Part shown: positions 1,357 to 31,182 of the stretch, in pieces
How positions within the stretch are numbered: position 1 is the first letter of the stretch
Layout: the number at the start of each line of letters is the position of its first letter
NCBI GenBank assembly: GCA_018399555.1
Contig: JAGYOL010000012.1
Span: 1-33,829 of the forward strand
Length of the DNA: 33,829 bases
Direction: 5' to 3'
Origin: Kiritimatiellia bacterium
Lineage (GTDB): Bacteria; Verrucomicrobiota; Kiritimatiellia; RFP12; UBA1067
The notes under the pieces: generated by a model
Database searches by the model: none
What the model was told of the DNA's origin: nothing
Seen by the model: the letters and a program-made list of their open reading frames with translations, nothing else
Translations under genes and position numbers: made by a program

Positions 1357-1398
1357 GATTATCTTCCATCTGGCGGAGTGGGATTCAGGGGTTTGCGC

Positions 1399-3675: not shown

Positions 3676-4571
3676 TGCTGAAAGTTGCTGTGTTAATGGG
3701 GGGCACCTCGCAGGAGAGAGAGATATCAATGAAATCAGGCAATGCTGTGGCAGCGGCTCTGGAGCGCAGGGGCTATCAGACACTGCCGGTTGTTCTGAAT
3801 GAGGATAGTCTTACCGCATTGCCTGATGGAGTCGATGCTGTTTTTATCGCTCTGCATGGCGGTTATGGTGAAAACGGCGGGGTTCAGGCTGATCTGGATG
3901 CACGCGGTATAGCCTACACAGGGCCGGGTGCCGCCGCCAGCCGTCTGGCAATGGACAAGATTGCTGCCAAAAAACTGCTAGTCGCTGCCGGTATTCCCAC
4001 AGCCGAGTGGGAGGTTTTAAGATACGGTGAAGCGTTGCGCAAGTTGAATTTTCCGGTTGTTGTGAAACCGCCCCGTGAGGGTTCCAGTGTGGGGGTTGCC
4101 AAAGTGAATGCAGCTGACGAACTGCCGGCCGCTTTGTCGGCAGCCTGTGCAGCTGATGCGCTGGGTGAGGCCTTGGTCGAAGGCTACATTGCGGGACGTG
4201 AATGGACCGTCGGCATCATCGGTGAACAGGTGCTGCCGGTGGTCGAGATTCTGGCACCGGACGGCTGGTACGGATTTGAAGCAAAATATACCCAGGGCCT
4301 TTCACATTTCGGGTTTCCTGATCCGGATGCAGAGGGTCCGCTGATCGACGAAGCGCAACGCCGGGCACTCTCAGCATACGATGCTCTGGGGTGCCGGGGG
4401 GTGAGCCGCGTGGATTTTCGCATAACTCCGGACGGCACCTGTTCGGTGCTGGAGGTCAACACTGTTCCGGGGATGACGTCAACCAGTCTTCTGCCGCGTG
4501 CGGCAGCTCGGGCCGGTCTGGATTTTGATGATCTTTGTTCAAAGCTGGTTGAGTTATCGGCCCACGATTGA
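3675..4571 (+). CDS. ddl: D-alanine--D-alanine ligase
   Basis: VLMGGTSQEREIS, VVKPPREGSSVGV and VLEVNTVPGMTSTSLLP are characteristic of Ddl. Confidence 0.95.
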   Translation: MLKVAVLMGGTSQEREISMKSGNAVAAALERRGYQTLPVVLNEDSLTALPDGVDAVFIALHGGYGENGGVQADLDARGIAYTGPGAAASRLAMDKIAAKKLLVAAGIPTAEWEVLRYGEALRKLNFPVVVKPPREGSSVGVAKVNAADELPAALSAACAADALGEALVEGYIAGREWTVGIIGEQVLPVVEILAPDGWYGFEAKYTQGLSHFGFPDPDAEGPLIDEAQRRALSAYDALGCRGVSRVDFRITPDGTCSVLEVNTVPGMTSTSLLPRAAARAGLDFDDLCSKLVELSAHD

Positions 4572-4604
4572 TATCATGAGGGGCAGATCAATACGGATAT
4601 CGCA

Positions 4605-5513
4605 GTGAAATTTGAGCTACTCAGAAATATTTTCAGATCAGGCGGAAAATCCGCAGCGCCGAAAAACGCAAAAAGCAGCGCACGGGCAAATTCCCGCTCG
4701 CGCCGCAGTGGTCGTCGCGGTTCGGAAATGCCCCCTTGGGTCAGGAAGGTATTGAAATTCAGTGCGGTGCTTCTGGCAGTACTCCTGATTCTGGCGGTGT
4801 TCCAGCAAGCCTTTTACAGCTTTTACTTTCGTTCTAACTCCTTGTTTGTCGTCAAAGACATAAAGAAAAATGTCAATATAGATACCGGCAAAACTGTGAC
4901 CTCCGATCTGATCAAAGAGTTTCTGGGCATTCAGGAGGGTGTCAACCTCTTTTCTATCAATGTTGATGCCAAGCGGGCTGAGTTGCTGCGTATAGCACCC
5001 AGCATTAAGGATATTGTGATTGTCAGACGTATGCCCGATGTTTTAGATGTTTCCATTATCGAAAGAGATCCGGTGGTGCGCATCGGTCAGGATGGACGGG
5101 TTGCTGATGAAGCGGGCGTCGTTTTTGTGCGCTATAAAAACACCGAGGGATTGCCGGTAATAATTCACTCATCCGGCAACAGGAAAGCCCGACCGGGCGA
5201 CCGTCTGAGTGCGATGGATTTGGCGGCGGTTAAACTGGCTGCCTCCACTTTCCGCCCTGAGTGCAAATTACGTATGCACACCCTCGATTCATCATTCACC
5301 CGTTATATAAAACTCACATTTCACGACGGACGTACGGCCAAAATAGCCTGGCAAGATATGACGGAGTTCAATAAAGACTCATACCGGAAGATGATCAGGC
5401 AGTATGATAATCTAGTACAGTGTATGATTTCAGATGTCGGAAAAATACATTATGCCTGGGATGCCCAGCTCGAACGACGTATCTTCGGGAAACGACGCAA
5501 TTTCACAGAGTAG
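4605..5513 (+). CDS. ftsQ: FtsQ/DivIB-like cell division protein
   Basis: Basic N-terminus, single TM, POTRA-like region (NLFSINVDAKRAELLRIAPSIKDIVIVRRMPDVLDVSIIERDPV), position between ddl and ftsA. Confidence 0.8.
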   Translation: MKFELLRNIFRSGGKSAAPKNAKSSARANSRSRRSGRRGSEMPPWVRKVLKFSAVLLAVLLILAVFQQAFYSFYFRSNSLFVVKDIKKNVNIDTGKTVTSDLIKEFLGIQEGVNLFSINVDAKRAELLRIAPSIKDIVIVRRMPDVLDVSIIERDPVVRIGQDGRVADEAGVVFVRYKNTEGLPVIIHSSGNRKARPGDRLSAMDLAAVKLAASTFRPECKLRMHTLDSSFTRYIKLTFHDGRTAKIAWQDMTEFNKDSYRKMIRQYDNLVQCMISDVGKIHYAWDAQLERRIFGKRRNFTE

Positions 5514-5522
5514 GAGATAACA

Positions 5523-6728
5523 TTGAAAAAAGATCCAATAGCTGTGTTGGAAATAGGTACCTCTCGCACAGTTGTCTGTGTGGGAGAACCCGACGACAGC
5601 GGTAATATACGATTGACCGGTATGGGCAGTTTTCCAACTAACGGAGTACGCAAGGGCCAGATAATCGATTTCAAAAAGGTCGCCAACGGAGTTGAGGCAG
5701 CCCGGGTGCAGGCAGAGGATGAGTCGGAAATAAATATCTGGCAGGTTCATCTGGCGGTGACCGGCGCACACATCACTGCGCAACCGCACTTGGAAAGAGT
5801 CGCCATTCAGGCGGCGGATAAAATTGTGACATCCGATGACATTGAGGAGCTGGATGATATTCTGAGTGAACCGGTGCTGGATGCCGAGCGAGTTTTGCTG
5901 CATACTTTGAACCAGTATTGGGATGTTGATGACCAGAACGGCATCGCCAATCCGGAAGGTATGCGATGCAATATGCTGTCCCGCAACGCTCTGGTTGTCA
6001 GCGGACTGCAGAATCGCGTGGACAACTTCAAGCAGGTGGTGGCCGATCTCAAGATGGATGTTGTTGATGTCGTTTTTGATGGTGTGGCGGCTTCGCGGGC
6101 GGTTCTCAGCACCGCGCAGAAACGCGATGGTGTCGTGCTGATTGATCTCGGGGCAGGCACGACTTCGGTCATGGTTTTTCAGAACCAGGTGGTTACAGAA
6201 CTCTTCTGTCTGGGAGTCGGAGGCGACCACGTGACATACGATATTGCCTGCGGCTTCAATATAAACTGGAGCAAGGCCGAAGAGATCAAATGTAAATTCG
6301 GGCGCGCCACTTTGGATGCGCAATCTGCTCAGGAACGTATTAAAATTCCAGGTCGTGAAACCTTCGGACCTGATTCGATCAATGCCAAGTCACTCCAGGT
6401 CATTATCAATGCCCGCTTGGATGAGATATTTAAAATTATTAAAGACCGCCTGCAGGAAGCAGGCTTGATGTTCAATCTCGGTGCAGGTCTGGTGCTGACC
6501 GGCGGCGGTGCGGCACTCACTGATATTGAAAGCCTCGCACAAAGGATTTTCAATCTGCCCTGCCATAAAGGTAAAATCCTCAATGTTGACGGTTTTTCCG
6601 AACGCAGTGATCCCGAGTCTTACGCAACTGTTGCGGGATTGCTCCGATATGCGTATGATGCGTTAGAAACGAAGAAAAATAGCAGAGGAATCTGGGGCAG
6701 GTTCTCAGAAAAATTCCTGGGAAAATAA
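5523..6728 (+). CDS. ftsA: Cell division protein FtsA
   Basis: Actin-fold motifs (AVLEIGTSRTVV, VVLIDLGAGTTSV, LTGGGAAL) and a C-terminal amphipathic segment GIWGRFSEKFLGK. TTG start. Confidence 0.9.
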   Translation: MKKDPIAVLEIGTSRTVVCVGEPDDSGNIRLTGMGSFPTNGVRKGQIIDFKKVANGVEAARVQAEDESEINIWQVHLAVTGAHITAQPHLERVAIQAADKIVTSDDIEELDDILSEPVLDAERVLLHTLNQYWDVDDQNGIANPEGMRCNMLSRNALVVSGLQNRVDNFKQVVADLKMDVVDVVFDGVAASRAVLSTAQKRDGVVLIDLGAGTTSVMVFQNQVVTELFCLGVGGDHVTYDIACGFNINWSKAEEIKCKFGRATLDAQSAQERIKIPGRETFGPDSINAKSLQVIINARLDEIFKIIKDRLQEAGLMFNLGAGLVLTGGGAALTDIESLAQRIFNLPCHKGKILNVDGFSERSDPESYATVAGLLRYAYDALETKKNSRGIWGRFSEKFLGK

Positions 6729-6731
6729 TTT

Positions 6732-7913
6732 ATGATAGCAAGATCAGATATGTTGCTGCTGGGAGTAGGCGGCGGCGGTTGTGCGATCACATGTGCCGTT
6801 GTCAAACAAGCCGACGTTAATTTCAAGGCATTGGCCGTCGATACCGATGCCGGCTCAAGTCGCGAGGCCGGTGATAACGCGATTGATTTTCTGCTCATAG
6901 GTCGCGATCGTCTGATGGGAAAGGGCACCGGTGGTGATGTGGCCAGCGGACGGGTGGCGGCCGATGACGACATGCAGCGTCTGGACCCGTTTCTCAGCGA
7001 GGTGCGGCTGGCGGTGGTGGTCTGCTCTCTCGGCTCTGGAACCGGTGGCGGTGCAACTCCGAAAATCCTGGATTATCTCTCCGATCGCGGCATTACAACC
7101 CTCTGCTTTGCCACACTTCCCTTTCAATTTGAGAGCGCCAGCCGGGTCGCATGTGCCGCAGGTATAACTTCGCTGCTTGCCGAAAGTGCCGATACACTAA
7201 TCACACTGCCGCTGGATCAACTGCATGAATGCAGCACGGATGACAATCTGAAACAGTGTGTCGATGTGGCCGCCGGAATCATAGGTGCCGGCGTGGCACT
7301 TGTGTGGCGCATGGTCTGTATGCCAGGCTATATCCAGCTTGATTCCGAGAAAATCAGAACTCTGGTGGTTGGCGGCAGGATGGCGAAACTTGGATTTGCC
7401 GGCAGTTCTGATCAGATTGAAGAGCGCGCCGCGGTTGTTCTGGATGGGCTGAGCTCGTTTCCGCTGTTACGGGAGGAAAAGGGCGGAATTCGCGCCGCGG
7501 AAGCACTGTTGGTCGGTATAATCGGCGGTGACGATCTGCGCCTTTCAGAGATCAGGCAGATTATGAACGGGATCAAAGCTCTTTACAATAAGGATGTTCG
7601 CGTTGAAATGGGTACTGTGCAGGATTCACTCTATAACGGACGTATCGATGTGGTGCTGCTGGCTTTCCGGAATCGGACACCGTTCACCGGTGCTGTCGCT
7701 GCGGTACAGCCCGTACTCGGCGATGAACCGCCCGTTGCGGATGTTTTGACTGTTGTGAAACAGACGCGCAAGGCCAAAGTACGCGGCGGTAGCCGCCTGT
7801 CCGTCGGTTCAAGCGGACGTGGCAGATTCCAGAACTGTGATCCCACCCTTCATTGCGGGGTTGATCTGGATGTGCCGACCTACCTGCGCTACGGATTAAA
7901 TATCGAGAAGTGA
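6732..7913 (+). CDS. ftsZ: Divergent FtsZ-family (tubulin/FtsZ) protein
   Basis: GVGGGGCA, AVDTDA, SLGSGTGGGATP (cf. GMGGGTGTGAAP), PFQFES, GGDDLRLSEI. C-terminal DVPTYLRYG resembles the DIPAFLRKQ FtsA-binding peptide. Directly follows ftsA. Confidence 0.88.
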   Translation: MIARSDMLLLGVGGGGCAITCAVVKQADVNFKALAVDTDAGSSREAGDNAIDFLLIGRDRLMGKGTGGDVASGRVAADDDMQRLDPFLSEVRLAVVVCSLGSGTGGGATPKILDYLSDRGITTLCFATLPFQFESASRVACAAGITSLLAESADTLITLPLDQLHECSTDDNLKQCVDVAAGIIGAGVALVWRMVCMPGYIQLDSEKIRTLVVGGRMAKLGFAGSSDQIEERAAVVLDGLSSFPLLREEKGGIRAAEALLVGIIGGDDLRLSEIRQIMNGIKALYNKDVRVEMGTVQDSLYNGRIDVVLLAFRNRTPFTGAVAAVQPVLGDEPPVADVLTVVKQTRKAKVRGGSRLSVGSSGRGRFQNCDPTLHCGVDLDVPTYLRYGLNIEK

Positions 7914-10286
7914 TGACTCTCTGTCGGCACTTGAAGGTTGTTTGCGACAGCCTGCGGCAACCGCTTGCGGCATGTTCCATGAATAGTCGATCCGGAAGCG
8001 GTGAATACCGAGTTTAAGAGCCTGTTTGATCAATGCGCTTCTGTCCAGCGGCCTGGCTGCGATGGTAATCCATAAATTTCCTTTCCGCCAAACTCGCAGA
8101 TCTGTCCCCGCCAAGCTTTGCAGCTCTGTGCAGTGCGCCTCCGCTTTACCCTCTGCCAGCGGAGGTGTGGCGGAGATGTAAAGCGGGGTGTGCTGAAATA
8201 TCAGCAGTTCTTGTTCACATAACTTTTCACTGCATGGATGGAGTGTCTGAAGATCAGACTCCGGTGAGGTCACGTGTGAAACAAAATCCATCTCATGAAG
8301 TTGACGGGCCGCTTCGCTGTTGCCGGCATAAAGTGTCCAGTCAGCTGATATGGGTTTGATTCCGCAGTTGCGCAACATACGGTAGCCAGCCAGACCCGGT
8401 GTTTCCCACTGTGTGTAACCGCATTGTGCAAGCTGACGTATATTGTGCTGCAGTGCTGTGCGGCTGTCTGCGCGAATAATAAGCGGCAGGGCTGGCGTCA
8501 CCAACTCTGTCTTGGGCACGGCCCCGCGCAGCAATTCAATTTTTTCCAGCAGCAGTTCAGGTGCGCGTTCATCAATTTCAACGACCAGTCGATCACACTC
8601 TGCGACAAAGTCGGGTAGGGGTAGTAGAGCCGAAATGTGCAGCTTGAGCGTGATTGTGACTTTGGGCGCGATGGATGCGGTTGCCGAAGTATGTGACGCC
8701 TTGAACGATGATGCATACGCTTTAAATCTGCAGTCGAGACGCTGGGCGCGTTCTCTTTCCAATTCGACAACCAGATCACGGCGCGCTTTGTTCAGTAATG
8801 CGGGGGGAGCAAAGAGCCCCTTGTCGTCCAGGAGTCGTACGGAGTCGGCATACCAGCGAGTGCCGCCCAGCCTGGAACAGGCTTTTCGCACAGCAGTTGC
8901 ACTCAGAACGGGATTGTCTGCCGGCTGTAGCTCTGAATTGACACTCACCTCTGCTGCGTCACCGGTTATTACTGAGCAACCCTGCATCAAAAGCCCATCC
9001 TCTTTCAAGGTCACACATATCCGCAGGGGAATGCCGGTGTTCAGGTCAGCGGGACGCGGGCGTTTAAAACGATATTTTTGTTGAACCTCCTGTGATGCGG
9101 AGCAGTAGATCGGGGTGCCGGGTGCTATGAATGGAACGGGTTGTTCCGTGATTAAAATTTCAAGATAGCTGCCAGCCGACACACTCAGTATTTCGTTTTT
9201 TTCTCTGTGTCTGCGCATAGAACGAATTGAAAACCCGAAGGGCCTTGACATATTGCTGATATCGATTTGAATGCCGTCGAATTTTTTTAAAGTCCGTGTT
9301 GTTTTGAAATACAACCACTGATTGTTCGTGTTGTCACTATAGACAGAGAGCACTTTGCCGATGAGAGCTCCTCTGTGACCGATGGTCTTCGAGTCAATCA
9401 CGGCATCGGGTTGCTGAGATGTGGAAAAGGAGTAGAGTGTTGTCCAGGGACGACTGAAAACGGTCTGGATTTCCTCAGTTGCCTCTCGTTCATCCCGGGG
9501 TGTCAGTTTGCCGTCGAGTTTGCGACGATAAGCGGATGTTACGCAGGCAACGTAAAGCGGATTTTTCATGCGTCCTTCAATTTTCAGAGAGTGCACTCCG
9601 GTTGCGGTGAGTTGATCGAGAATGGGCAGCAGGGCCAAATCTTTCATTGAGAAGGGATGGCTGATTGATCTGCTGCTGTCTGAAAAAGGGTGACGGCAGC
9701 AATAGGCGCATTGGCCCCGGTTGCCGCTGCGTCCGGTTGTCATGGCTGAGAACAGACACAATCCGCTGTAGCTGTAACATAGAGCACCGTGGATGAATAT
9801 CTCAATTTCGACGCCACAGTGACTGACTATTGCTTCAATTTCCTGCAGGGTGAGCTCACGTGCTGTCACTACGCGCCGGAAACCCAGGTCGCGCAGTGCC
9901 ATAACGTCATCAATGCTGTGAGCGGCCATCTGTGTGCTGGCATGCATCTCAATTTCAGGAAAATGTCTGCGGATAATACGCGCGGCACCGATGTCTTGCA
10001 CAATCACACCGTCAGGCCGCAACTCCTCAGCCAGTTCAAGCATTTTGAAAAAATCAGGCAGTTCGCTGTCGGTCAGCAATGTGTTGAGTGTGATGTAAAT
10101 CTTTTTGGTCGGAGTAAAAGTTCTGGCGTAGGCTGATAGCAGAGCGAGTTCTTCAAAGGTTGAATTATCTGCTTCGGCTCTGGCAGAAAAACTCTTTAAT
10201 CCGAGATATACGGCATCCGCGCCATATTGAAAAGCGGCAATGGCTGCATCATAAGAGCCAGCAGGTGACAACAATTCCGGTTTCAT
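7896..10286 (-). CDS. U32 family peptidase (large RlhA/YegQ-like form)
   Basis: MKPELLSPAGSYDAAIAAFQYGADAVYLG and EIFIHGALCYSYSGLCLFSAMTTGRSGNRGQC, hallmark U32 motifs. Converges on and overlaps ftsZ by 18 nt. Confidence 0.9.
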   Translation of the reverse strand: MKPELLSPAGSYDAAIAAFQYGADAVYLGLKSFSARAEADNSTFEELALLSAYARTFTPTKKIYITLNTLLTDSELPDFFKMLELAEELRPDGVIVQDIGAARIIRRHFPEIEMHASTQMAAHSIDDVMALRDLGFRRVVTARELTLQEIEAIVSHCGVEIEIFIHGALCYSYSGLCLFSAMTTGRSGNRGQCAYCCRHPFSDSSRSISHPFSMKDLALLPILDQLTATGVHSLKIEGRMKNPLYVACVTSAYRRKLDGKLTPRDEREATEEIQTVFSRPWTTLYSFSTSQQPDAVIDSKTIGHRGALIGKVLSVYSDNTNNQWLYFKTTRTLKKFDGIQIDISNMSRPFGFSIRSMRRHREKNEILSVSAGSYLEILITEQPVPFIAPGTPIYCSASQEVQQKYRFKRPRPADLNTGIPLRICVTLKEDGLLMQGCSVITGDAAEVSVNSELQPADNPVLSATAVRKACSRLGGTRWYADSVRLLDDKGLFAPPALLNKARRDLVVELERERAQRLDCRFKAYASSFKASHTSATASIAPKVTITLKLHISALLPLPDFVAECDRLVVEIDERAPELLLEKIELLRGAVPKTELVTPALPLIIRADSRTALQHNIRQLAQCGYTQWETPGLAGYRMLRNCGIKPISADWTLYAGNSEAARQLHEMDFVSHVTSPESDLQTLHPCSEKLCEQELLIFQHTPLYISATPPLAEGKAEAHCTELQSLAGTDLRVWRKGNLWITIAARPLDRSALIKQALKLGIHRFRIDYSWNMPQAVAAGCRKQPSSADRESSLLDI

Positions 10287-10313: not shown

Positions 10314-10682
10314 TCAGCAGTTCTCAATCATTCTGATCAGCAACTCCTTGATCAGCCCGGACTCTCCCAGATGAGCTCCGATTGTAATCGACAGTTGCGG
10401 GTATAATTTTCCGGCTTCTTCGAGTGCCGCCGGTATATCGCGAGTGACATGTCGTCCAGAGTTGAGAAAGTAGGGCAGCACCGTTACGCTGGATGCTCCG
10501 TCCCGGACACAGGCACCCACACCCTCCGTAATTGATGGCTGCGCCATGTCAAGAAAAGCGGCATGTATGATCCCGATACCGTTTTTCCGGGCGGTATCGC
10601 GCAGTTGACCGGCAAGAGCCAGAACTTCATCATTGGATGCCTGTCGGCGGCTGCCGTGTGCCACTAGCAAGATTGCTTTCAT
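10314..10682 (-). CDS. cbiX: Single-domain CbiX-like sirohydrochlorin chelatase
   Basis: [13 protein letters not shown] and [19 protein letters not shown], typical of the short CbiX family. Confidence 0.82.
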
Positions 10683-11025
10683 CGCTGCTTACCTTGTTAT
10701 TGTTTTTAATCATAATCGGTTCGTGAAAATTCTGAAAGGTAAATGCCACGGAGTGGTGATAACCGTTCTCGGCCTTGGCAATATATTTGGGAATGAAAGC
10801 GTGCGGCAGATGAGAGTCGACACAGGTTGCGACGGTATGATGGCCGGCTTGCTGCCAGGAGTCATACTGGGGGTTCATAATGTGACAATTTACGCAGGCG
10901 CGGGGATCAGCACTCAGATATGAGAAACCTTCGGCATACTTGAAGGTGTATGCTCCGGTGCCGAGCAAGGCACCCAGCGTGATGGCGGCGGCACAAATCT
11001 GCTTAGCTCCTGTCATTACTCCCAT
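10630..11025 (-). pseudogene. nrfH: Truncated and degenerate NrfH-like cytochrome c nitrite reductase small subunit
   Basis: [41 protein letters not shown]...[22 protein letters not shown] matches the N-terminal half of NrfH. The second heme site reads CVDSH instead of CxxCH and the C-terminal heme sites are absent. Confidence 0.75.
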
Positions 11026-11199
11026 TATCGCAAGTGATTAAATAAAATACAAGCGGGTATAGCCGTTTTTTGGCGTGTATGAGCTGATGCTGTAATTTGC
11101 GGACGGCCAAAAAAGATAAGATTATAGTGGTTTTTAGCAATGAATTTTGCTATTTTAAAACCCTTTAACCCGGAAATTGGGTATTTAGAGGGGGTTCCG

Positions 11200-11294
11200 C
11201 TCTGTTTGAGTGAACAGAGATTGAAAGGAACTCAGATTATTAACACTGAAAAAACGCCTGTGCAAGGTCAGTCGTCTCATCAATGTAATGAGAC
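11200..11294 (+). promoter_or_regulatory. rpsA 5' leader region with two perfect 7-bp hairpins
   Basis: CTCTGTT-TGAGTG-AACAGAG (11200-11219) and GTCTCAT-CAATGTA-ATGAGAC (11274-11294), upstream of the rpsA start at 11331. Confidence 0.45.
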
Positions 11295-11330
11295 ACATTC
11301 AATCACTTTGTCAGGTGGGAAATCCATAAT

Positions 11331-13076
11331 ATGGCAATTCGCAAACCCCAGGCAGCTAAACCGAAAACAGGCCCCATGTATGAGGCAATGGAAGCTGCCT
11401 TGACCCAGCAGATGCAACAGTTCACGGCAGGGTCGATTATCAAGGGTAAGGTAAGCGGTATCAAAGGCAACGAGGTTCTTGTTGATATCGGCTACAAATC
11501 TGAAGGCATTGTTAATGCGAACGAGTTCGAAGATGTTTCCACCGTGAACGTCGGCGATGTTATCGATGTGTTGCTGGTTGAGCTTGAGAGCGACAACGGC
11601 ATGGTGAATCTGAGCAAGGCCCGCGCGGATGAGAAGTTGCGCTGGGATGCCGTGCTTGAAAAATATACCGAAGGATGCATGGTTACGGGTGTGATTCGTA
11701 ACAGGGTGCGCGGCGGTCTGATTGTTGATGTTGATGGTGTCGATTCCTTCCTGCCGGGTTCACAGATCGATGTGACACCGGTTGGTGATGTCGATGATTT
11801 TATCGGTCAGAGCTTTGAGTTTAAAGTTATTAAGATCAGCAATGAACGTAGAAATATAATTGTTTCACGGCGCGAGCTTATCGAAGAGCGCATGGCTGAC
11901 AAGAAACGTGAGCTGCTGGCTTCAATTGAAAAGGATCAGCAACGTACAGGGCGCGTCAAGAATATCACTGACTTCGGTGCTTTTGTTGATCTCGACGGTT
12001 TGGACGGACTGCTGCACATAACCGATATGAGCTGGGGCCGAATCAAACATCCGAGCGAGATGCTCAAGGTGGGTCAGGAACTCGAAGTCGTGATCCTGGA
12101 TGTTGACATGGAACGCGAACGGGTCTCGCTGGGTCTCAAACAGGCTACACCTAATCCGTGGGAGGATATCGAAGGCAACTTCCCGATCGGTAGCCGTCTG
12201 CGCGGCAAGGTCGTCAATCTTGTGCCGTATGGCGCCTTTGTCGAAATTCAGCCCGGTATCGAGGGTCTGGTGCATGTTTCAGAGTTTTCATGGACAAAAC
12301 GGGTCGCACGTGCCTCGGATGTACTTAACGTCGGTGATGAAGTGGATGTTGTGGTGCTCAGTATCGATGCTGATAATCAGAAGATCGCACTGGGCATACG
12401 TCAGACCGAGGATAATCCCTGGGATACCGTGCAGGATCGTTATCCGGTTGGCAGCCGTATCAGCGGCAAGGTACGTAACTTCACGACTTACGGGGCCTTT
12501 GTCGAATTGGAAGAGGGTATTGACGGCATGATCCACGTCTCCGACATGTCCTGGACCCGCAAGATCAACCATCCTAGTGAGGTTCTTCAGAAGGGGCAGG
12601 AGGTTGATGCGGTAGTGCTTGAGGTCAATCCCGCTGATCAGCGCATCAGTCTGGGGCTGAAACAGGCCAGCGACGATCCCTGGAACACAATCACAGCCCG
12701 CTTCGCAATCGGTCAGGTTGTAAAGGGCAGGGTCTCCAAGATCGCCTCTTTCGGTGCTTTCGTCGAACTGGAAGACGGTGTCGACGGACTTGTACATATC
12801 TCGCAGATTTCGGATCAGCATGTTGAAAAGGTCAAGGATGTTCTCAAGGTCGGCGATGAGGTCGAAGCCCGTATCGTCAAGATCGACAGCGATGAACGCC
12901 GTATCGGGCTGAGCATCAAAGCTGTCAATATGGATGAGACCGAGATCGAAGAGCTCACCCGCGATCTCAGTGTCACGGATCTGAAGCCCGGCGAGAATCT
13001 GGTCGGTCTGGCTGCCGCCTTCGATGACGCCTTCGCACAGAGCGAAAGCGAAGAGTGGCATCCCGGTGATAACTGA
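11331..13076 (+). CDS. rpsA: 30S ribosomal protein S1 (multiple S1 domains)
   Basis: Tandem S1 repeats such as GRVKNITDFGAFVDLDGLDGLLHITDMSWGRIKHPSEMLKVGQELEVVILDVD. Confidence 0.95.
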   Translation: MAIRKPQAAKPKTGPMYEAMEAALTQQMQQFTAGSIIKGKVSGIKGNEVLVDIGYKSEGIVNANEFEDVSTVNVGDVIDVLLVELESDNGMVNLSKARADEKLRWDAVLEKYTEGCMVTGVIRNRVRGGLIVDVDGVDSFLPGSQIDVTPVGDVDDFIGQSFEFKVIKISNERRNIIVSRRELIEERMADKKRELLASIEKDQQRTGRVKNITDFGAFVDLDGLDGLLHITDMSWGRIKHPSEMLKVGQELEVVILDVDMERERVSLGLKQATPNPWEDIEGNFPIGSRLRGKVVNLVPYGAFVEIQPGIEGLVHVSEFSWTKRVARASDVLNVGDEVDVVVLSIDADNQKIALGIRQTEDNPWDTVQDRYPVGSRISGKVRNFTTYGAFVELEEGIDGMIHVSDMSWTRKINHPSEVLQKGQEVDAVVLEVNPADQRISLGLKQASDDPWNTITARFAIGQVVKGRVSKIASFGAFVELEDGVDGLVHISQISDQHVEKVKDVLKVGDEVEARIVKIDSDERRIGLSIKAVNMDETEIEELTRDLSVTDLKPGENLVGLAAAFDDAFAQSESEEWHPGDN

Positions 13077-13094
13077 TTGACACTTTAGAAAAGA

Positions 13095-13122
13095 GGGCGT
13101 CTGGCGACAGGCGCCCTTTTTT
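13095..13122 (+). terminator. Intrinsic terminator after rpsA
   Basis: GGGCGTCTG-GCGA-CAGGCGCCC followed by TTTTTT: 9-bp stem with a GNRA-type loop. Confidence 0.88.
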
Positions 13123-13201
13123 GACAGGGTGAACGGTAGAATTGATGGGCAGCCGCCCTCACGGCAATTAAGTCAGAGAACAGAAGCTGAAAGAAAAATA
13201 A

Positions 13202-21866: not shown

Positions 21867-22726
21867 TCCATCTGTTCAAAAACGCCGTCCTCAGCCTGAC
21901 CCGTCAGCACCTTGAGCCGTTGCCATGCCTCAATATAACTAAGCAGGTATCGGTTTTCAGAGCTCTCCGCCATTTTCTCCAGCAGATTTCGAACCCTCCG
22001 CTGTTCCAGGAGATACTCCTCGGACGTGAACCTTGCAGCGAAACGAGCCATACGCAGCCAGAGCAGATAGGTGGTTATGGCGTCAAAACAGTTGTATTGT
22101 ACAATCTGCTCGAGTCTGCCGCTGTAGTACAGAGAGCACACATCAATGCCGCTGGTTTCCAGTTTGCCCGGTATGCCCGAGAGCGTGGCCGCCTCGTTCA
22201 GCGAAACCGTGTACCCTTTGCCATAGCCGCTGATGATGTTCATCAGATCGACATCATTGCTCTCCCAGGGCTTGGCATTCAGACGGCGGTTGAAAGTGTC
22301 CAGTGCCATGCCTTTGAAAATCGCCCGCTGTGTCAGAATCCGCAGATCGGCGTTGCGCGAGTTGTAACCGACCAGTTGCGGGTTGTATCTTGAAACCCCT
22401 TCATCCAAAAACCGACTCAGAATGTAGCTTTCGTTATTCTGTGAGCGATCAGAGGGATTCTCCGGAATCCCCTGCAGAAAAAGCTGCACACTCCCGTCGC
22501 CGGATTTGCGCCGGATCAGGGTTGCAATAGAAACAACCCGGCAAAGCGCGGTTTTGAGAAAGGGCATGGGATCATCCGCTGTGGCGCCGCCCTCACGCCA
22601 CATGACCTTCAGCACCTCTTCATCGCTCATTTTGTCAGGCAGTTTGTAAAGCAATCTGCCGGCAAGCAGGTCAGGCACCCACTCGCAGTCAAAGGCCCAG
22701 ACTTCATCAGGTATAGTGGTGATCAT
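21863..22726 (-). CDS. Predicted 3'-5' exonuclease, DEDD superfamily, PolB-exonuclease-like
   Basis: AFDCEW (D-E), YNSRNADLRIL (D) and QYNCFDAITTYLL (D) in DEDD order. Confidence 0.75.
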   Translation of the reverse strand: MITTIPDEVWAFDCEWVPDLLAGRLLYKLPDKMSDEEVLKVMWREGGATADDPMPFLKTALCRVVSIATLIRRKSGDGSVQLFLQGIPENPSDRSQNNESYILSRFLDEGVSRYNPQLVGYNSRNADLRILTQRAIFKGMALDTFNRRLNAKPWESNDVDLMNIISGYGKGYTVSLNEAATLSGIPGKLETSGIDVCSLYYSGRLEQIVQYNCFDAITTYLLWLRMARFAARFTSEEYLLEQRRVRNLLEKMAESSENRYLLSYIEAWQRLKVLTGQAEDGVFEQMD

Positions 22727-24243
22727 GGAATATTACCCTCCTCATCCGGTGTCGCCGGTATTGAATCATTGTATCCTCTGAGAACCGGCTGGCGCAACTC
22801 TACTTTGCCGCTGAAATCCGCCACGATACGAAAACGTACATGTGTTGTGCCGCGGTTAAGTTTGATCTTGCGCGATATGGCGGCGACATTCTGGCCTTCA
22901 TTGGTGCGGCCCCGCACCTCGATGCTATCAAGCTTCTTGTTGCTTAGCGTGCCCTCTGCATCAGTGCCGTACGATTGCACCTGGTAGGAGACGGTGCCGT
23001 GATAATTGTCGAGCTTGCGTATTCTGCCCTGCATGCGCAAATGCTCAAGACCGCACTCACCGATCCTGATCAGCGGTGATTCCAGCACAAAGCGCGCTCT
23101 TGAAAGGTGGTTTATTATAATAGAATCAGGGGTCTTGCCAGACTCCAGTTGCTGCGCACGCCGGTCGTTCAGAGTGTAGCGCCATCCCTGCATCCCGGTA
23201 TCCCGGTTGATAACAGAGGGCAGGGCATGAAGATAGTTGTCGGTCGCGAGACCGTCGCCTCCGGGCTGAATCATCGGCATCCGGCCCGTCGGGAGAGTCA
23301 GCGCATAACTGGCCGAAGCATTGGAGCGCCGGATTTTGCAAGTCAGATAGATTGAGGCGCAAAGCGAGAGCGCGGCGATTAAAAATATAATCATTCGGTA
23401 TTTTTTTATCTGCGAACGCTGCGTGTGCTGTAATTTGCGGATGGTCTCGGTGAGGTGATGCTTTTCATCAATCGGTTTGATAAAAGAAAGCCTTTCGCGT
23501 ACAGCAGGCAGAGAGGACTCAGCGGTATGCTCCTTCAGCCAAGGAACTTCATCCATCCCGGCCAGCAGCAGGGCGTTGTTGAAGGAGATGCAGTCAAACG
23601 GCAGATGGTGAAAAACGATGCTGCGTTCTGAGTGATCAAATACGCAGTAGGTGGATTCCAGTTTGCCTGTCCGGGGATAACCGATTGTGCCGGGATTGAC
23701 AATATAACGTTTATGATCTTCCAGGATAAAATCACACGGCTCAAGAAAATGCGCCGTGCCGCTTTGACCGATAACGTAGATGGCCGCCAGATGGGTGTGC
23801 CCCGCGAACATCAACTGCTCGGATCTGTTTTCGAAAGAAGACTGCGCATCTTCGCCAGTAATAATGTAACGGAATGCGCCGGGTTTGGTGAAATCACCGT
23901 GAACACAGCGGAAAGCAGGTGCTCCCAGCGTCAGTGGCAGAGATTTCAGCCAGCTTAAAGCTTGGTCTGAAAGCATCCCGCGATGTTTTAGCACCGCTCT
24001 GCGTGCTTCCGGACAGAAAACCAGTGGATTGAGTTTGCCGCAGACAGCTGCGTCGTGGTTGCCCAGCAGATGACACTCCGTTACCCGATAAACCAGCTCG
24101 AGGGTTTCAACCGGTTGCGGACCGTAACCAACCGTATCGCCCAAACAGATTATTTTATCTATGTTCCGCTTGGCGATGTCGTTCAAAACCATCTGTAAAG
24201 CGGTAAAATTGGCGTGTATATCAGAGATAAACGCGTAACGCAT
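22723..24243 (-). CDS. Calcineurin-like metallophosphoesterase with TM segment and C-terminal extracytoplasmic domain
   Basis: FISDIHANF, CLGDTVGYGP, LLGNHDAA, FAGHTHLA and VNPGTIGYPR in the N-half; TM MIIFLIAALSLCASIYLTC; about 200 further residues. Confidence 0.85.
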   Translation of the reverse strand: MRYAFISDIHANFTALQMVLNDIAKRNIDKIICLGDTVGYGPQPVETLELVYRVTECHLLGNHDAAVCGKLNPLVFCPEARRAVLKHRGMLSDQALSWLKSLPLTLGAPAFRCVHGDFTKPGAFRYIITGEDAQSSFENRSEQLMFAGHTHLAAIYVIGQSGTAHFLEPCDFILEDHKRYIVNPGTIGYPRTGKLESTYCVFDHSERSIVFHHLPFDCISFNNALLLAGMDEVPWLKEHTAESSLPAVRERLSFIKPIDEKHHLTETIRKLQHTQRSQIKKYRMIIFLIAALSLCASIYLTCKIRRSNASASYALTLPTGRMPMIQPGGDGLATDNYLHALPSVINRDTGMQGWRYTLNDRRAQQLESGKTPDSIIINHLSRARFVLESPLIRIGECGLEHLRMQGRIRKLDNYHGTVSYQVQSYGTDAEGTLSNKKLDSIEVRGRTNEGQNVAAISRKIKLNRGTTHVRFRIVADFSGKVELRQPVLRGYNDSIPATPDEEGNIP

Positions 24244-25652: not shown

Positions 25653-27035
25653 TCATTTAAACATGGCTTCATAGTGCGGCAGTGGCGCGAAGATTCCGCC
25701 GCTCTTATCATAAAAATCTTTGCCAAGGTCAAAAATTCCTTTGTGTGTTTGTGCCCATTCGGCATTTGGATAAGGGTGATAACTGCGCATGGTCTGCCAG
25801 TTTTTGTAATTTTGATGACCATTGGTTTCGAGCAACCCTAAGCCTGCTAATCCGGGGAATGCGTCAAGGCGCGCAGCCACATTCTTATTCCATTCAATCA
25901 GAATGGGATTGACTGTCAAGTCAGCACAGAAACAGGGTACATTGTGCTGTTTGGCTGTATTGGCAATGCGCAAGGTCATGCTGAGAGTTTTTGCAATTGC
26001 TTTCAAGGCGATTGCACGGTAACCCATCTGAATGCGTTCGATTGCATCCTTATCGGTATGGGCACTCTCGTCAGCCGCCAGTCGCACCGGTATATCGTGA
26101 ACATCGATCTCCAGCTCTTCATCAAAGGGTTCTTCAATGACGGATATCTGATCAAAAGCCCCGATTTTGCGGGTGTGATCCAGCAGACGCATCAAAGTCT
26201 CTTTCGTTTCGTAACGGCCATTGGCATCGAAATAGTAGGGGAGCTTGCCACTCTCGGTGTATGGGGTGCGGTAACCATCCAGTGCGTTGTGAACAGCCGA
26301 GAGGCGCTCCATATCTTTTTTAAGCATCTCCTCCTGTGTGCCACTTTGACCGATCTTAATTTTCATGAAGAAATAACCGTCATTTGCCGCGCCCTTAATT
26401 TCATCAATGGGTATGTTATATGCCATCAGCGGAATTGAGGCGACCTTGGGGTGGTGGTTTGATAAAGCCGGTTTATAGCGCTCGGGAATCAGATCATCGA
26501 AGTTGGTTATACCGTGTTCTTTGGCATAGAGCAGCCAGATGGCGTTGTCCACACCGACCAGCGCATTGAGAGCCAGCGTCTGGCGCAGATGCGGCATCTT
26601 ACAGATGGTTTTGCCGTATTTATAGACCTCCTGGAACAATTCTTCATTTAAAGCGACCGGATCGGTGAAGGAGTGTCCTTTGAGCAGATTGAGCGCATGG
26701 TTGGTCATGGCCAGCAGCAGTGCGTTGCCGCCGACATCAGAGTTTGCCACAAATACCTTGGCGTCGCTCCACAATACACTGTGTGTGCAGAGCCCTATGC
26801 CGCGTTTGCCGCTGGTAGATTGTACCATTGCGGCACTTTGCCAGATGCTGTTAAGAGCACCGCCTTTGAAGCCGAAGGGGCGGATCAGCGGCTCTCTCTC
26901 AAAATCACAGCCGGTGCGTTCAATCCGGATCGCTTTTTTTGCAGTCGAACCGCTTTCTGATTCCATTGTTCTACAACCCGCCACAGCACCCGCCGCAGCC
27001 AGTGAAATACTCTTTAAAAAATCTCTTCTTTTCAT
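25653..27035 (-). CDS. Tat-exported, possibly lipoprotein, enolase-superfamily (mandelate racemase/muconate-lactonizing-like) enzyme
   Basis: MKRRDFLKSISLAAAGAVAGC signal with lipobox-like AGC; MKIKIG, YFDANGRY, IEEPF and ADESAH active-site motifs. Confidence 0.82.
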   Translation of the reverse strand: MKRRDFLKSISLAAAGAVAGCRTMESESGSTAKKAIRIERTGCDFEREPLIRPFGFKGGALNSIWQSAAMVQSTSGKRGIGLCTHSVLWSDAKVFVANSDVGGNALLLAMTNHALNLLKGHSFTDPVALNEELFQEVYKYGKTICKMPHLRQTLALNALVGVDNAIWLLYAKEHGITNFDDLIPERYKPALSNHHPKVASIPLMAYNIPIDEIKGAANDGYFFMKIKIGQSGTQEEMLKKDMERLSAVHNALDGYRTPYTESGKLPYYFDANGRYETKETLMRLLDHTRKIGAFDQISVIEEPFDEELEIDVHDIPVRLAADESAHTDKDAIERIQMGYRAIALKAIAKTLSMTLRIANTAKQHNVPCFCADLTVNPILIEWNKNVAARLDAFPGLAGLGLLETNGHQNYKNWQTMRSYHPYPNAEWAQTHKGIFDLGKDFYDKSGGIFAPLPHYEAMFK

Positions 27036-27061
27036 TCTATACTCCCGCCTGATTACGAATG

Positions 27062-28033
27062 TCAGGTTTTTGAATTGTTATACTTTGTGGGTGGCAAAGT
27101 GCTTTCAAATTCTGTCCTGTAAAAGGCGCACTCACGGGTACACCGTTCTTCGGCGATACGGATTTTATGATCTATCGGCAGTCTGCTCTCTTCTTTGCTC
27201 AGCAGCCCCCATTCAAGATGCACTGTTGAAGGCACCTGAATTTTCAGTTCCTTCAGCAGGCTGAGATACTCTTTCCATGGCACAATTCCCTCTCCGGCTG
27301 GCTGGCGGCGCGGTATAGGCAAACCGTTCTTTTCGTCACCGAAGTCAAAGTCTTTCAGGCAGATACTGCTGATCCACGGTGCAATCACTCTGGTTGCATT
27401 GCTCCAGGAGCTGGGACTTTCCGCGATCGCATGCCGGATATCATACTGGCAGCTGATCTCCCGGGGATCAATCTCCCGAACAGCACTGTATAAATCCCAA
27501 ACCACACCGCCGAATAACTCAGGTTTCCAAGCATAATGATTCTGATAACTGCCGGTCAGTCCGAGTTTTTTATTGAGCTGTGCGAGTTTTTCAAAGCGGG
27601 CCCGGATGTCATCCAGAGAACGGGCTACGCCTCTTTTATAATCATACTTCTGGTAACCCATACGGTACATTTCTACCCCGTTTTCGGCGGCTGTCTCAAG
27701 AATTGTCCGGGCGTATTCATCCTCCGCCGAGGTGATCGCAGTGACAATCATATTCACCTTCAACCCGCGTGACTGCGCGGCTTTGACCGCACGCGGCAGA
27801 TCAGTGCGCACCTTCTCCGGCAGAACATGACCTTTGGGCCGAACCGTCAGATCAATTCCGTCCACGCCGATTGTTGCTAAACAATCAGATAGCTGTTCAT
27901 AATTCATCCAATGCAGCGGCTTGGAAAAAAAATTCATCTGCATCTTTGTTTTGTCACCTTGCGCAAAAAGCGTATGAGCCAAGGTTCCGGCGGAGGCCAG
28001 TATCCCGGTTTTGAGTAAATCACGGCGTGTCAT
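27062..28033 (-). CDS. Tat-exported sugar phosphate isomerase/epimerase-like TIM barrel
   Basis: MTRRDLLKTGILASAGTLAHTLFA signal; TIM-barrel AP-endonuclease-2-like sequence (GVDGIDLTVRPKGHV, DIRHAIAE, VHLEWG). Start moved to 28033, with AAGGAGAG upstream. Confidence 0.78.
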   Translation of the reverse strand: MTRRDLLKTGILASAGTLAHTLFAQGDKTKMQMNFFSKPLHWMNYEQLSDCLATIGVDGIDLTVRPKGHVLPEKVRTDLPRAVKAAQSRGLKVNMIVTAITSAEDEYARTILETAAENGVEMYRMGYQKYDYKRGVARSLDDIRARFEKLAQLNKKLGLTGSYQNHYAWKPELFGGVVWDLYSAVREIDPREISCQYDIRHAIAESPSSWSNATRVIAPWISSICLKDFDFGDEKNGLPIPRRQPAGEGIVPWKEYLSLLKELKIQVPSTVHLEWGLLSKEESRLPIDHKIRIAEERCTRECAFYRTEFESTLPPTKYNNSKT

Positions 28034-28058
28034 ATCTCTCCTTTTGTAATGTGTGAAA

Positions 28059-30143
28059 TTACGGTTGTTTTCCGGGTGATTGCGCGATACGCGTTTCATA
28101 CATGATTGCGGCGATTTCGCGTGCGGCCGCAACCAGTTCAGGATGCGGCTGATCGGTGCCGGTTAGAAATCCGATCTGATAGTTTTCCGCGTCACCGCGT
28201 CCGGTAAGCGGCTGATCCCGCCATTGAAACCAGTGAGTGCCGACATAACGCGGATGATGCAGACATGCTATCAGGAAATCTTTATACGCCTGCGCGCGTT
28301 GCTGCTGATCCTTAACGGCTACGAGTCCGGTGTGAAACATGCCGCGGTCGAGAGCTCCGAAGTGGAACTCGCCATTAATAAGCGGCTTGTCGACACTGCC
28401 TTCAGGAATATCCTTGGTGGGTACGCGGTTGTAGTTGTTGAAGCTGACAATATCACAGTATCGTGACGCAACTTTGAATGAGGCGGGGGAGCCGAAGGCG
28501 AATCGACAGCCGAGATAAAGTTTGTGAGGCGCTGCCTGTTTAAGTGCGGCACTGATGACAGAAAAGTATTCCGCCGCAATGAATTCGTGCAGCGCCAGCA
28601 GATCATCACCGGCGGCGTCAATTTGTGGAACTATCTGCTCTGACAGAAAAGCATCACGTGAAGCATAAGCGCTGCCCCATTTTTGATTGAGCTTTTCAAG
28701 GTTGTCATGTTTTTGCATCAACCACTCGAAAACGGCGTTTTTCACCGGTTGCGCAGCGGGTGATTTTAAGGCCGCTTCCGCCAGAGCGCGGTCGTGATTG
28801 CCCCAGGATAACTCATTGTCCACAAAATATCCGATGCACCAGGGATCATCGGCAGTTTTCCTGCTGTTTGCCAGGCTGCGTTTAATCGACTCCTTGAACT
28901 CAGGGTGAAAAGGATCAGGGAATTTACCCCACCAGCCATCTGAACCCTCTATTGGCGGCGCCTGCGTGCCAAGATTAACAACATAGGGTGTGCGGCGCAT
29001 CATATAGACGGTGTGATCTGACCAGTTGGCAATCGTATTCAGACCCCAAGCGCGCAGACGGCGATGAGCCATGTCGCGATAGATAGCGCGCCACTCCTCT
29101 CCGTATTTGCGCAGCATGTTAGCGGCGGAAAAGCTGTATGTGCGGTGTCGGCCCCGATCTTTATAAAAACCGTGTGGAGCCCAACTGTTCCAATTGTAGA
29201 AAGCGGCAAAAGGAGAGTCAGCTTCCGGCAGCCATTCAAAATAGGGTTCACGATCCTGAATGCCGCTGTATGTTGCCGGCTGCACGCAATTGACACCATG
29301 CGAGAAAAAGAGCTGTCCATCAGGATCTACCAGCCACCACATGCCGCGGAATTTTTCCACTCGGAAATGACCGGTGGCCTGCAATGTCACTCCGTCGGCC
29401 CAGCCACCCCATTGGTTGAATGTTTTCGGTGCCGCATTTTCATCAAGGAATTTCTTTTCAGCGTCTGCCGCTTTATGCAAATCATCTTCAGTTTTTATTT
29501 TGCCTGGCCAGTCGTCGTGTCGGAACTGACCGAAACAATCGACAAACGGAAGGAATTCCTTGCTTTTAAGCACTTTGATTGTCGGTCCTCCCTGTTCGGC
29601 TTCAATTTTGGTTACCGTGAAGGCGGCCCGCTTTGTTGGTCGGTTCAGAAAAAGATGCAGCTCGGCTGTTTCACGCAGGTTGAACTGGTCGTCTTCAATC
29701 GCCTTTGGAAAGCCGCGCATGCCGACAAGTTCCAGCGGGGTGTCAAGAATCCATGGCATCTCGAAAAGTCTGACGCGCATGATACCGGCAGTGCCGGACT
29801 TCAGTGTCAGTGCATCGCCGGGTGAAGAATCTTTCTCAGGCCGATTTTTGATTGAGAGGCAAATTGTAAGGGTCTGGTCGCAACTGTTGGAGAGTGTGAT
29901 GTTTATAAAACTGTAGCGGGTCAGATCGTAACTGTTATTTTTGAAATAGACCGTGACACCCGGCCAGTCATAATCGGTGTCGGTGTTGACGGCGATACTG
30001 CCGTTATCAGGCAGCGCAATCGAAGATGCTTTGTGCGCCCGTGCTTCGCACAGTTCTGATGGCCATAGTTGTAAGAAGGTGTTGCCGAAAAGCAATGCCG
30101 GCACAACTGCAAAAATCAGTGCCGGTGATAGTCTGGTTCGCAT
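28059..30143 (-). CDS. Exported glycoside hydrolase, clan GH-A, beta-agarase (GH50)-like
   Basis: Signal peptide; RGMWWLVDPDGQLFFSHGVNC; WCIGYFVDNELSWGN (acid/base NE); LINGEFHFG (candidate nucleophile). Confidence 0.7.
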   Translation of the reverse strand: MRTRLSPALIFAVVPALLFGNTFLQLWPSELCEARAHKASSIALPDNGSIAVNTDTDYDWPGVTVYFKNNSYDLTRYSFINITLSNSCDQTLTICLSIKNRPEKDSSPGDALTLKSGTAGIMRVRLFEMPWILDTPLELVGMRGFPKAIEDDQFNLRETAELHLFLNRPTKRAAFTVTKIEAEQGGPTIKVLKSKEFLPFVDCFGQFRHDDWPGKIKTEDDLHKAADAEKKFLDENAAPKTFNQWGGWADGVTLQATGHFRVEKFRGMWWLVDPDGQLFFSHGVNCVQPATYSGIQDREPYFEWLPEADSPFAAFYNWNSWAPHGFYKDRGRHRTYSFSAANMLRKYGEEWRAIYRDMAHRRLRAWGLNTIANWSDHTVYMMRRTPYVVNLGTQAPPIEGSDGWWGKFPDPFHPEFKESIKRSLANSRKTADDPWCIGYFVDNELSWGNHDRALAEAALKSPAAQPVKNAVFEWLMQKHDNLEKLNQKWGSAYASRDAFLSEQIVPQIDAAGDDLLALHEFIAAEYFSVISAALKQAAPHKLYLGCRFAFGSPASFKVASRYCDIVSFNNYNRVPTKDIPEGSVDKPLINGEFHFGALDRGMFHTGLVAVKDQQQRAQAYKDFLIACLHHPRYVGTHWFQWRDQPLTGRGDAENYQIGFLTGTDQPHPELVAAAREIAAIMYETRIAQSPGKQP

Positions 30144-30171: not shown

Positions 30172-31182
30172 TTACTCTATGTCTTGATCTGTGTTGTTGA
30201 GCCATAGTTGAATGGCTTTGTTCATCATCCGTTTTGCAGTGCCCAATGGCTCTTTGATTGTGCAGCCGGCCGCACGGGGATGCCCGCCGCCGTCAAAATC
30301 ACTGATCAACAGAGTGGCGTCGAGCGGTTCGCGGGCCCGGATGCTGACGCGTGTCTCGCTTTTATCCTCACTCTCATAATAAAAGATCGCCACTTTATTG
30401 CCAATCAGCGAGCGCGGAATTTCGATAATGTCCTCGGCATCAGCTTTGGTGCCGCCGGTCTCTTCAAAATCACGTCCGGTCAGAGCGACAGAGGCCACGA
30501 TGTTGTTATCAGAGATTGCCAGGGTGCGAAAGGCGCGCCGCTTGAGCTCCATGTTGATGCGTGAAAAAGAGCAGTAGAGTTGATCGTTGATGTACGAAGT
30601 CCGCACGCCGCGTTTGAGCAGTTCCGCCGCGCAACGCAGGGTTTTAGGTGATGTCATATCATGCGCGAAGCGTCCGGTATCGGTAATCAGAGCCACCCAG
30701 AGGGCCTCGGCTGTCGTGGTATCAATTTCCCAGTGCGCCTTGCGTGCCATTTCCCAGAGCATCTCGGCAGTTGATGAGGCTTTGCTGTCAATTTTGTTGT
30801 AAGCACCGAAACGTGTGTTTGTCTGATGATGATCGATGTTTATGACGGTATTTTTAAGAATGATTTTATGCAGCTGCTCTGGAACACGATCCAGTGATCC
30901 GCAGTCCACGGTCACAACTGTGTCATAACGTTTGCGGACAGCGGTTTTCAGCGGTATCAGATTTTTAACTCCGGTCAGAAACTGCGGACCTCCCAGACCT
31001 TTCTTGCCGCAGGCGGCAACGGCTGTAACGCCAGTACTTTTAAGCATGCGCGCCAAAGCGATCATGCAGCCGAGCGAATCTCCGTCAGGACGCACATGAC
31101 CGGTGATGAGCACACTGCGCGAGTGCTGCAAAAGAGCGATGATTTCAAGGTAAGAGGCGTTTTTTTTAGGTTTGTCAGCCAT
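30172..31182 (-). CDS. DHH/DHHA1 phosphoesterase, NrnA-like oligoribonuclease/pAp phosphatase
   Basis: GHVRPDGDSLG, TVDCGSLDRVP, NIDHHQTNTRFG, ALITDTGRF and GGGHPRAAG motifs. Confidence 0.9.
   Translation of the reverse strand: MADKPKKNASYLEIIALLQHSRSVLITGHVRPDGDSLGCMIALARMLKSTGVTAVAACGKKGLGGPQFLTGVKNLIPLKTAVRKRYDTVVTVDCGSLDRVPEQLHKIILKNTVINIDHHQTNTRFGAYNKIDSKASSTAEMLWEMARKAHWEIDTTTAEALWVALITDTGRFAHDMTSPKTLRCAAELLKRGVRTSYINDQLYCSFSRINMELKRRAFRTLAISDNNIVASVALTGRDFEETGGTKADAEDIIEIPRSLIGNKVAIFYYESEDKSETRVSIRAREPLDATLLISDFDGGGHPRAAGCTIKEPLGTAKRMMNKAIQLWLNNTDQDIE

Follow-up and report, generated by a model that had tools for sequence, protein, structure and literature searches.

Background

Among the closest described systems to the genes considered here are periplasmic pathways acting on 3-keto-glycosides. 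BT2157 has been described as a 3-ketotrehalose hydrolase in connection with DUF1080 proteins (PMC9007349), and TIM (triose-phosphate isomerase)-barrel enzymes, AtOGE/AtHYD, eliminate and hydrate 3-keto-glucosides (PMC10628242). The present work concerns a three-gene cluster in a 33,829-nucleotide stretch of DNA from a Kiritimatiellia bacterium (contig JAGYOL010000012.1), referred to as the window, which encodes a glycoside hydrolase of family 50 (GH50), a TIM-barrel protein and an enolase-superfamily enzyme. The TIM-barrel and enolase genes form the conserved unit and GH50 is only their local neighbour; elsewhere the pair is often accompanied by an exported oxidoreductase, a partner that could not be seen from the window alone. 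The chances seem evenly balanced that these genes represent a module exported by the twin-arginine translocation (Tat) system which, outside the cytoplasm, converts a carboxylated sugar by oxidation followed by rearrangement.

The genes and their export signals

The cluster is transcribed from the minus strand in the order GH50, TIM barrel, enolase. Its genes lie 25 bp (GH50-TIM) and 26 bp (TIM-enolase) apart and have recognisable ribosome sites; the coordinates and the tight arrangement given in a preliminary description of this DNA were confirmed. The features are as follows.

28059..30143, minus strand: GH50 beta-agarase-type hydrolase with a signal peptide, 694 aa (phmmer against 4bq2, 4bq4, 5z6p and 6xj9)
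28036..28044, minus strand: ribosome site AAAGGAGAG of the TIM gene (read from the sequence)
27062..28033, minus strand: exported xylose-isomerase-like TIM-barrel protein, 323 aa (PF01261, AlphaFold, Foldseek)
27959..28033, minus strand: TIM Tat signal MTRRDLLKTGILASAGTLAHTLFAQ (RR kept in at least 90 % of 13 aligned homologues)
25653..27035, minus strand: exported enolase-superfamily enzyme with a muconate-lactonizing-type active site, 460 aa (PF13378 E 5.8e-11, profile against PDB, AlphaFold, Foldseek)
26973..27035, minus strand: enolase Tat signal MKRRDFLKSISLAAAGAVAGC, including the lipobox Cys21 (cytoplasmic homologues lack this extension)
26355..26357, minus strand: codon of invariant Lys227, the second Lys of KxK in strand 2 (profile and 35-sequence alignment)
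26001..26003, minus strand: codon of invariant Lys345 in strand 6, the predicted acid/base opposite Lys227 (in 2zad, the Thermotoga dipeptide epimerase, the aligned residue is the strand-6 Lys)

The TIM gene starts at the ATG at 28033 (MTRRDLLK), preceded by AAAGGAGAG, and the enolase begins with MKRRDFLK and has AGC at residue 21, so that the Tat signals and the lipobox-like site noticed earlier are indeed present. The Tat assignment is more than a motif match, because the Tat-type enolases carry an N-terminal extension of about 30 residues that is missing in the cytoplasmic homologues, whose sequences start at about residue 36 of the window protein. All Tat-type enolases fall within one supported clade (100/99), which also includes some signal-less members, and the trees therefore need three to four label changes. 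In genome G003 the enolase signal (L053:4496-5938, plus strand) resembles the TIM signal of a neighbouring species (MNRKEF...AGCYTS...MPQARNAHL), as if a TIM gene had been deleted between the two.

Conservation of the TIM-enolase pair and its oxidoreductase partner

The window comes from an incomplete assembly of 2.86 Mb, whose named relatives are metagenome-assembled genomes of Kiritimatiellae and of other members of the Planctomycetes-Verrucomicrobia-Chlamydiae group. The TIM and enolase genes were adjacent in 12 loci: the window, L023, L048-L052, L054, L087, L088, L140 and L144. These comprise one family (the window and genomes G001, G004, G006, G014, G021 and G022), two loci from elsewhere in the phylum Verrucomicrobiota (L087, L088) and three from Bacteroidota (L023, L140, L144). 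The gaps between the two genes were mostly between -4 and about 110 bp. Pairwise identities of the TIM and enolase proteins were correlated (Mantel r 0.86, p 2e-4, 11 pairs), of which species relatedness alone yields some part. An IlvD/EDD gene following the enolase in L088 was considered as a sugar-acid dehydratase and dropped, as its start reads like that of an ordinary IlvD.

A Tat-bearing Gfo/Idh/MocA oxidoreductase is encoded directly upstream of the TIM gene in five loci (L048, L050, L051 and the Bacteroidota loci L023 and L140), a 108-residue open frame lying between the two genes in L048, and directly before the enolase gene in L022 and L089-L092. A Gfo/Idh gene was found within two genes of the Tat-type enolase in 11 of the 14 cases with enough flanking sequence, the exceptions being the window, L144 and L145. 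The frequency of Gfo/Idh genes in these genomes is not enough to make such recurrence expected; the window's own genome holds 41 Gfo/Idh matches over the cut-off in its 2.86 Mb. For all four partner proteins tested the best NCBIfam model was NF058561 (BT_2158 glycoside 3-dehydrogenase), at 95-146 bits, below the cut-off of 750, and their solved relatives include 8tdf, 8tdh and the glucuronide-3-dehydrogenase 8tdi. In L144 a DUF6797-cytochrome c fusion (10341-13178, minus strand) precedes the pair and is possibly an alternative oxidising partner.

Both Bacteroidota loci with the complete triplet lie in a polysaccharide-utilization setting. The gene order in L140 is SusC, SusD, Gfo, TIM, enolase, and that in L023 is SusC, SusD, GH29 fucosidase, FG-GAP/ASPIC protein, Gfo (in two frames), TIM, enolase, GH31, RraA-like protein, sodium:solute symporter family (SSF) protein and dihydrodipicolinate synthase (DHDPS)-type aldolase. 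SusC was named from position and sequence, and SusD in L140 by Pfam. The window's own genome contains 10 matches over the cut-off to 3-keto-disaccharide hydrolases, at least two of them neighbouring Tat-type Gfo genes, and 45 to sulfatases.

The active sites of the two enzymes

Single enolase and TIM sequences gave no phmmer matches in PDB at 0.01, and profiles were required. The enolase motifs reported earlier are kept as KIK (225-227), DANGRY (270), IEEPF (300-304) and AADES (320-324), with the metal ligands intact; in an alignment of 35 homologues from several phyla the catalytic letters are invariant, among them K225, K227, D270, E301, E302, D322 and K345. The best profile matches in PDB were 3s5s and the dipeptide epimerase 2zad, and in the profile alignment K225/K227, D270, E301, D322 and K345 match the KxK, the D, E and D ligands and the strand-6 Lys in the latter. 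In Foldseek searches with the AlphaFold model (pLDDT, the predicted local distance difference test score, 92.2) dipeptide epimerases and N-acylamino acid racemases ranked first, and talarate dehydratases and the anhydrogalactonate cycloisomerase lower. Neither the 35-sequence alignment nor the model has an invariant His after strand 7 (residues 368-370, followed by ADLTVNP), the residue that marks acid-sugar dehydratases of the mandelate-racemase subgroup. The Lys/Lys pattern and the missing His argue against a dehydration of galactonate type. Lys/Lys chemistry is expected instead, in which an alpha proton is transferred, or an elimination takes place, next to a carboxylate bound to the metal, and membership in the dipeptide epimerases is not claimed.

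Homologues of the enolase with 43-80 % identity were found in 34 of the 388 sampled genomes of its own phylum, in 6 of 396 on the Bacteroidota side and 2 of 392 on the Planctomycete side, and in one Clostridia record. Judged by their sequences, they form an uncharacterised family whose members are predicted to be mostly cytoplasmic. The neighbours of the cytoplasmic members (a tyrA/aroA-type run in one genus, a low-molecular-weight phosphatase, a class II tRNA synthetase) are housekeeping genes and were treated as incidental. Two further enolase-like genes were encountered. In L087 a second enolase-superfamily-like gene (6282-7826, plus strand; KIK, DGNE, EQP, DES; no Pfam match at 1e-5) directly follows the enolase, and L145, from a Bacteroidota genome with three enolase paralogues, has a Tat-type paralogue after three 5-oxoprolinase-type (pxpABC-type) genes (4362-8454, plus strand).

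The TIM protein matches PF01261 (AP_endonuc_2) with E 7.5e-15 and 55.7 bits against a cut-off of 31.1. With its AlphaFold model (pLDDT 88.6) Foldseek returned sugar isomerase, epimerase and hydratase folds and no clear winner. At the positions of the E-D-H-E metal ligands of the PF01261 epimerases the residues appear to be Q164, D198, C225 and H272, an uncertain assignment made by eye from alignments. The protein may thus have lost most of the metal ligands usual in sugar epimerases.

Proposed mechanism

The proposed reactions would take place outside the inner membrane, the enolase being probably lipid-anchored at Cys21. A Gfo/Idh-type enzyme would oxidise a ring hydroxyl of a carboxylate-bearing sugar, such as a uronic or aldonic acid derived from a polysaccharide, and the TIM barrel would rearrange the keto sugar by epimerisation, elimination or hydration. 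A carboxylated substrate is inferred because enolase-superfamily enzymes bind a carboxylate; the enolase would hold this group via a metal on D270, E301 and D322, while Lys227 and Lys345 would remove and return the alpha proton. The product would be an epimer or an eliminated 2-keto-3-deoxy acid, afterwards taken up by the cell; the second possibility agrees with the presence of SSF and DHDPS genes in L023. In the window genome the GH50 galactanase would have taken the upstream place, and the dehydrogenase, which has no adjacent gene there, would be supplied from an unlinked one. Oxidation would come first, ahead of the TIM and enolase steps.

With somewhat less confidence, and still tentatively, it may be proposed that Kiritimatiellae, Verrucomicrobiota and Bacteroidota possess an undescribed periplasmic route for acidic sugars, made up of consecutive steps by an exported Gfo/Idh dehydrogenase, by a TIM barrel whose metal site is altered and by a muconate-lactonizing-type enolase that has been re-targeted. 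Proton abstraction of the enolase-superfamily kind would thereby operate in the periplasm.

Several observations weigh against the proposed mechanism. Known enzymes of the muconate-lactonizing subgroup use amino-acid derivatives, muconate or succinylbenzoate precursors, not sugars. In the window, where the 3-keto-glycoside pathway would lead one to look for an adjacent dehydrogenase, the pair has no Gfo/Idh gene next to it, and the nearest copy of the partner-type Gfo in the same genome is only 35 % identical. The DHDPS/SSF context occurs in a single locus. In L087 and L088 the Tat signal is present on the TIM protein and lacking on the adjacent enolase, and from these sequences the two proteins would occupy different compartments.

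Alternative explanations

The preliminary description had joined all three genes in an extracytoplasmic agar pathway, in which GH50 frees oligogalactans, the TIM barrel epimerises and the enolase dehydrates a galactonate- or anhydrogalactonate-type acid sugar. The GH50 assignment itself held: phmmer matched the protein to the solved beta-agarases 4bq2/4bq4 with E down to 1.7e-92 in two stretches (residues 198-291 and 297-687), and both catalytic Glu are kept. The acid/base is E444, aligned to the Glu that is Gln in the mutant 4bq4 (from a comparison of 4bq2 and 4bq4), and the nucleophile is E592 in NGEFH, aligned to the GEFH motif. A self-contained pathway of this kind is also in line with the position of GH50 immediately upstream of the TIM gene, with the 3,6-anhydro-L-galactonate cycloisomerase 5xd9 at rank 28 among the enolase fold matches and with growth on agar of the Kiritimatiellae isolate Pontiella agarivorans (PMC10880615). 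However, in five genomes of relatives (G002, G004, G006, G014, G022) the best GH50 orthologue (56-62 % identity) and the enolase are found on separate contigs, and these orthologues share no neighbours. GH50 was therefore rejected as part of a conserved unit. The enolase family is also found far beyond GH50 contexts. The Lys/Lys site and the lack of an aldose-oxidising gene adjoining the cluster also speak against the pathway, which is considered unlikely, and agar specificity of the TIM-enolase module is not supported. What stands of the earlier proposal is the idea of an extracytoplasmic saccharide pathway, since relatives of the pair occur in SusC/SusD loci with exported oxidoreductases. 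Because its orthologues are unlinked to the enolase and share no neighbours, GH50 appears from sequence to be an ordinary beta-agarase relative in a local neighbourhood. As a separate observation, genomes G041, G048, G050 and G052 each contain 28-40 matches to the GH50 protein, an unusual expansion.

The enolase might instead be an exported epimerase of dipeptides or N-acyl amino acids, acting through its Lys/Lys site on peptides of the cell wall or of glycoproteins. Its best fold and profile matches are enzymes of these types, and the Tat paralogue in L145 lies beside the 5-oxoprolinase-type genes. In dipeptide epimerases a DxD at the end of strand 8 holds the amino group; this motif is not present in the enolase, which has ETNG (403-406, with E403 and N405 invariant) in its place. 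Scores against the NCBIfam racemase/epimerase models reach 27 and 25 bits where the cut-offs are 400 and 500, and the gene partners are sugar-type enzymes. A peptide epimerase is thus quite unlikely.

It is very unlikely that the substrate of the pair is a plain keto sugar or carbohydrate ether and that the enolase has ceased to be a carboxylate enzyme. The long branches, the unusual N-terminal motif FEREPLxxPFGFKGG and the low best bit scores to any known family would agree with such a change, but none of the metal ligands and neither Lys varies among the 35 sequences. Finally, it is hardly credible that the Tat-like N-termini do not export and that both proteins are cytoplasmic, like the enolases of the family's deeper branches. 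Twin-arginine extensions occur on enolase, TIM and Gfo proteins of different lineages, several of them including a lipobox, and are missing in the cytoplasmic relatives.

Genes surrounding the cluster

The sequence upstream of GH50 contains the following gene.

30172..31182, minus strand: NrnA/DHH-type phosphoesterase, a housekeeping gene given as context and outside the module (PF01368/PF02272; NF053633 below cut-off)

It ends only 28 bp from GH50, and the run continues upstream into the housekeeping genes proA and proB, which leaves little room for a dedicated promoter. Downstream of the enolase lies a rubrerythrin gene on the opposite strand. As had been remarked earlier, no transporter, sulfatase or regulator gene adjoins the cluster in the window, the neighbours being of nrnA, proA, proB and rubrerythrin type. 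Elsewhere in the window a single 765-aa frame (1378-3675, plus strand) within the cell-division run ddl, ftsQ, ftsA, ftsZ fuses a Mur ligase (in the MurC-type position) to MurB, and a 506-aa protein (22723-24243, minus strand) joins an N-terminal calcineurin-like phosphoesterase to a long C-terminal extension that includes a hydrophobic segment and in which the Pfam scan named no second domain.

Comparison with known systems

Each of these enzyme types is already known. In the literature searched, which leaves most subscription journals outside, the combination of Gfo, TIM and enolase and the exported branch of the enolase were not the subject of any paper found, nor was there a relevant one that links Tat export with mandelate racemase or the enolase superfamily. 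If the proposed mechanism is correct, enzyme types familiar from the cytoplasm act on acidic sugars outside the cell membrane in bacteria of two phyla, an uncharacterised enolase family gains its first role and the gene triplet in SusC/SusD loci can be tested. It would also widen the recently described route of glycan breakdown by oxidation and subsequent elimination. The case shows as well that a single neighbouring glycoside hydrolase is a poor guide to pathway membership.

The window GH50, a putative agarase, is close to the beta-agarases represented by Aga50D (4bq2) in its E-value and its two catalytic Glu; it differs in having many paralogues in relatives. The 3,6-anhydro-L-galactonate cycloisomerase (5xd8/5xd9), an intracellular agar-sugar enzyme, shares the superfamily fold with the enolase (Foldseek E 3.4e-16) and ranks below the dipeptide epimerases among its matches. 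With the muconate-lactonizing subgroup (dipeptide epimerases 2zad, 3jva and 1jpm; N-acylamino acid racemase 2zc8) the enolase has in common the fold, the strand-2 KxK, the D/E/D ligands and the strand-6 Lys, whereas it differs in an identity of only 13-19 %, in the strand-8 ETNG, in its distinctive N-terminal motif, in being exported and in its sugar-type partners. The periplasmic 3-keto-glycoside pathway (BT2156-BT2160 of B. thetaiotaomicron; DUF1080, AtOGE/AtHYD) likewise combines an exported Gfo/Idh dehydrogenase with a TIM-barrel sugar enzyme, and the TIM protein has the hydratase of that pathway, AtHYD (8ro4), among its fold matches, yet the two are only distantly similar. The present module differs from that pathway in having no DUF1080 gene beside the pair and in the addition of an enolase-superfamily enzyme.

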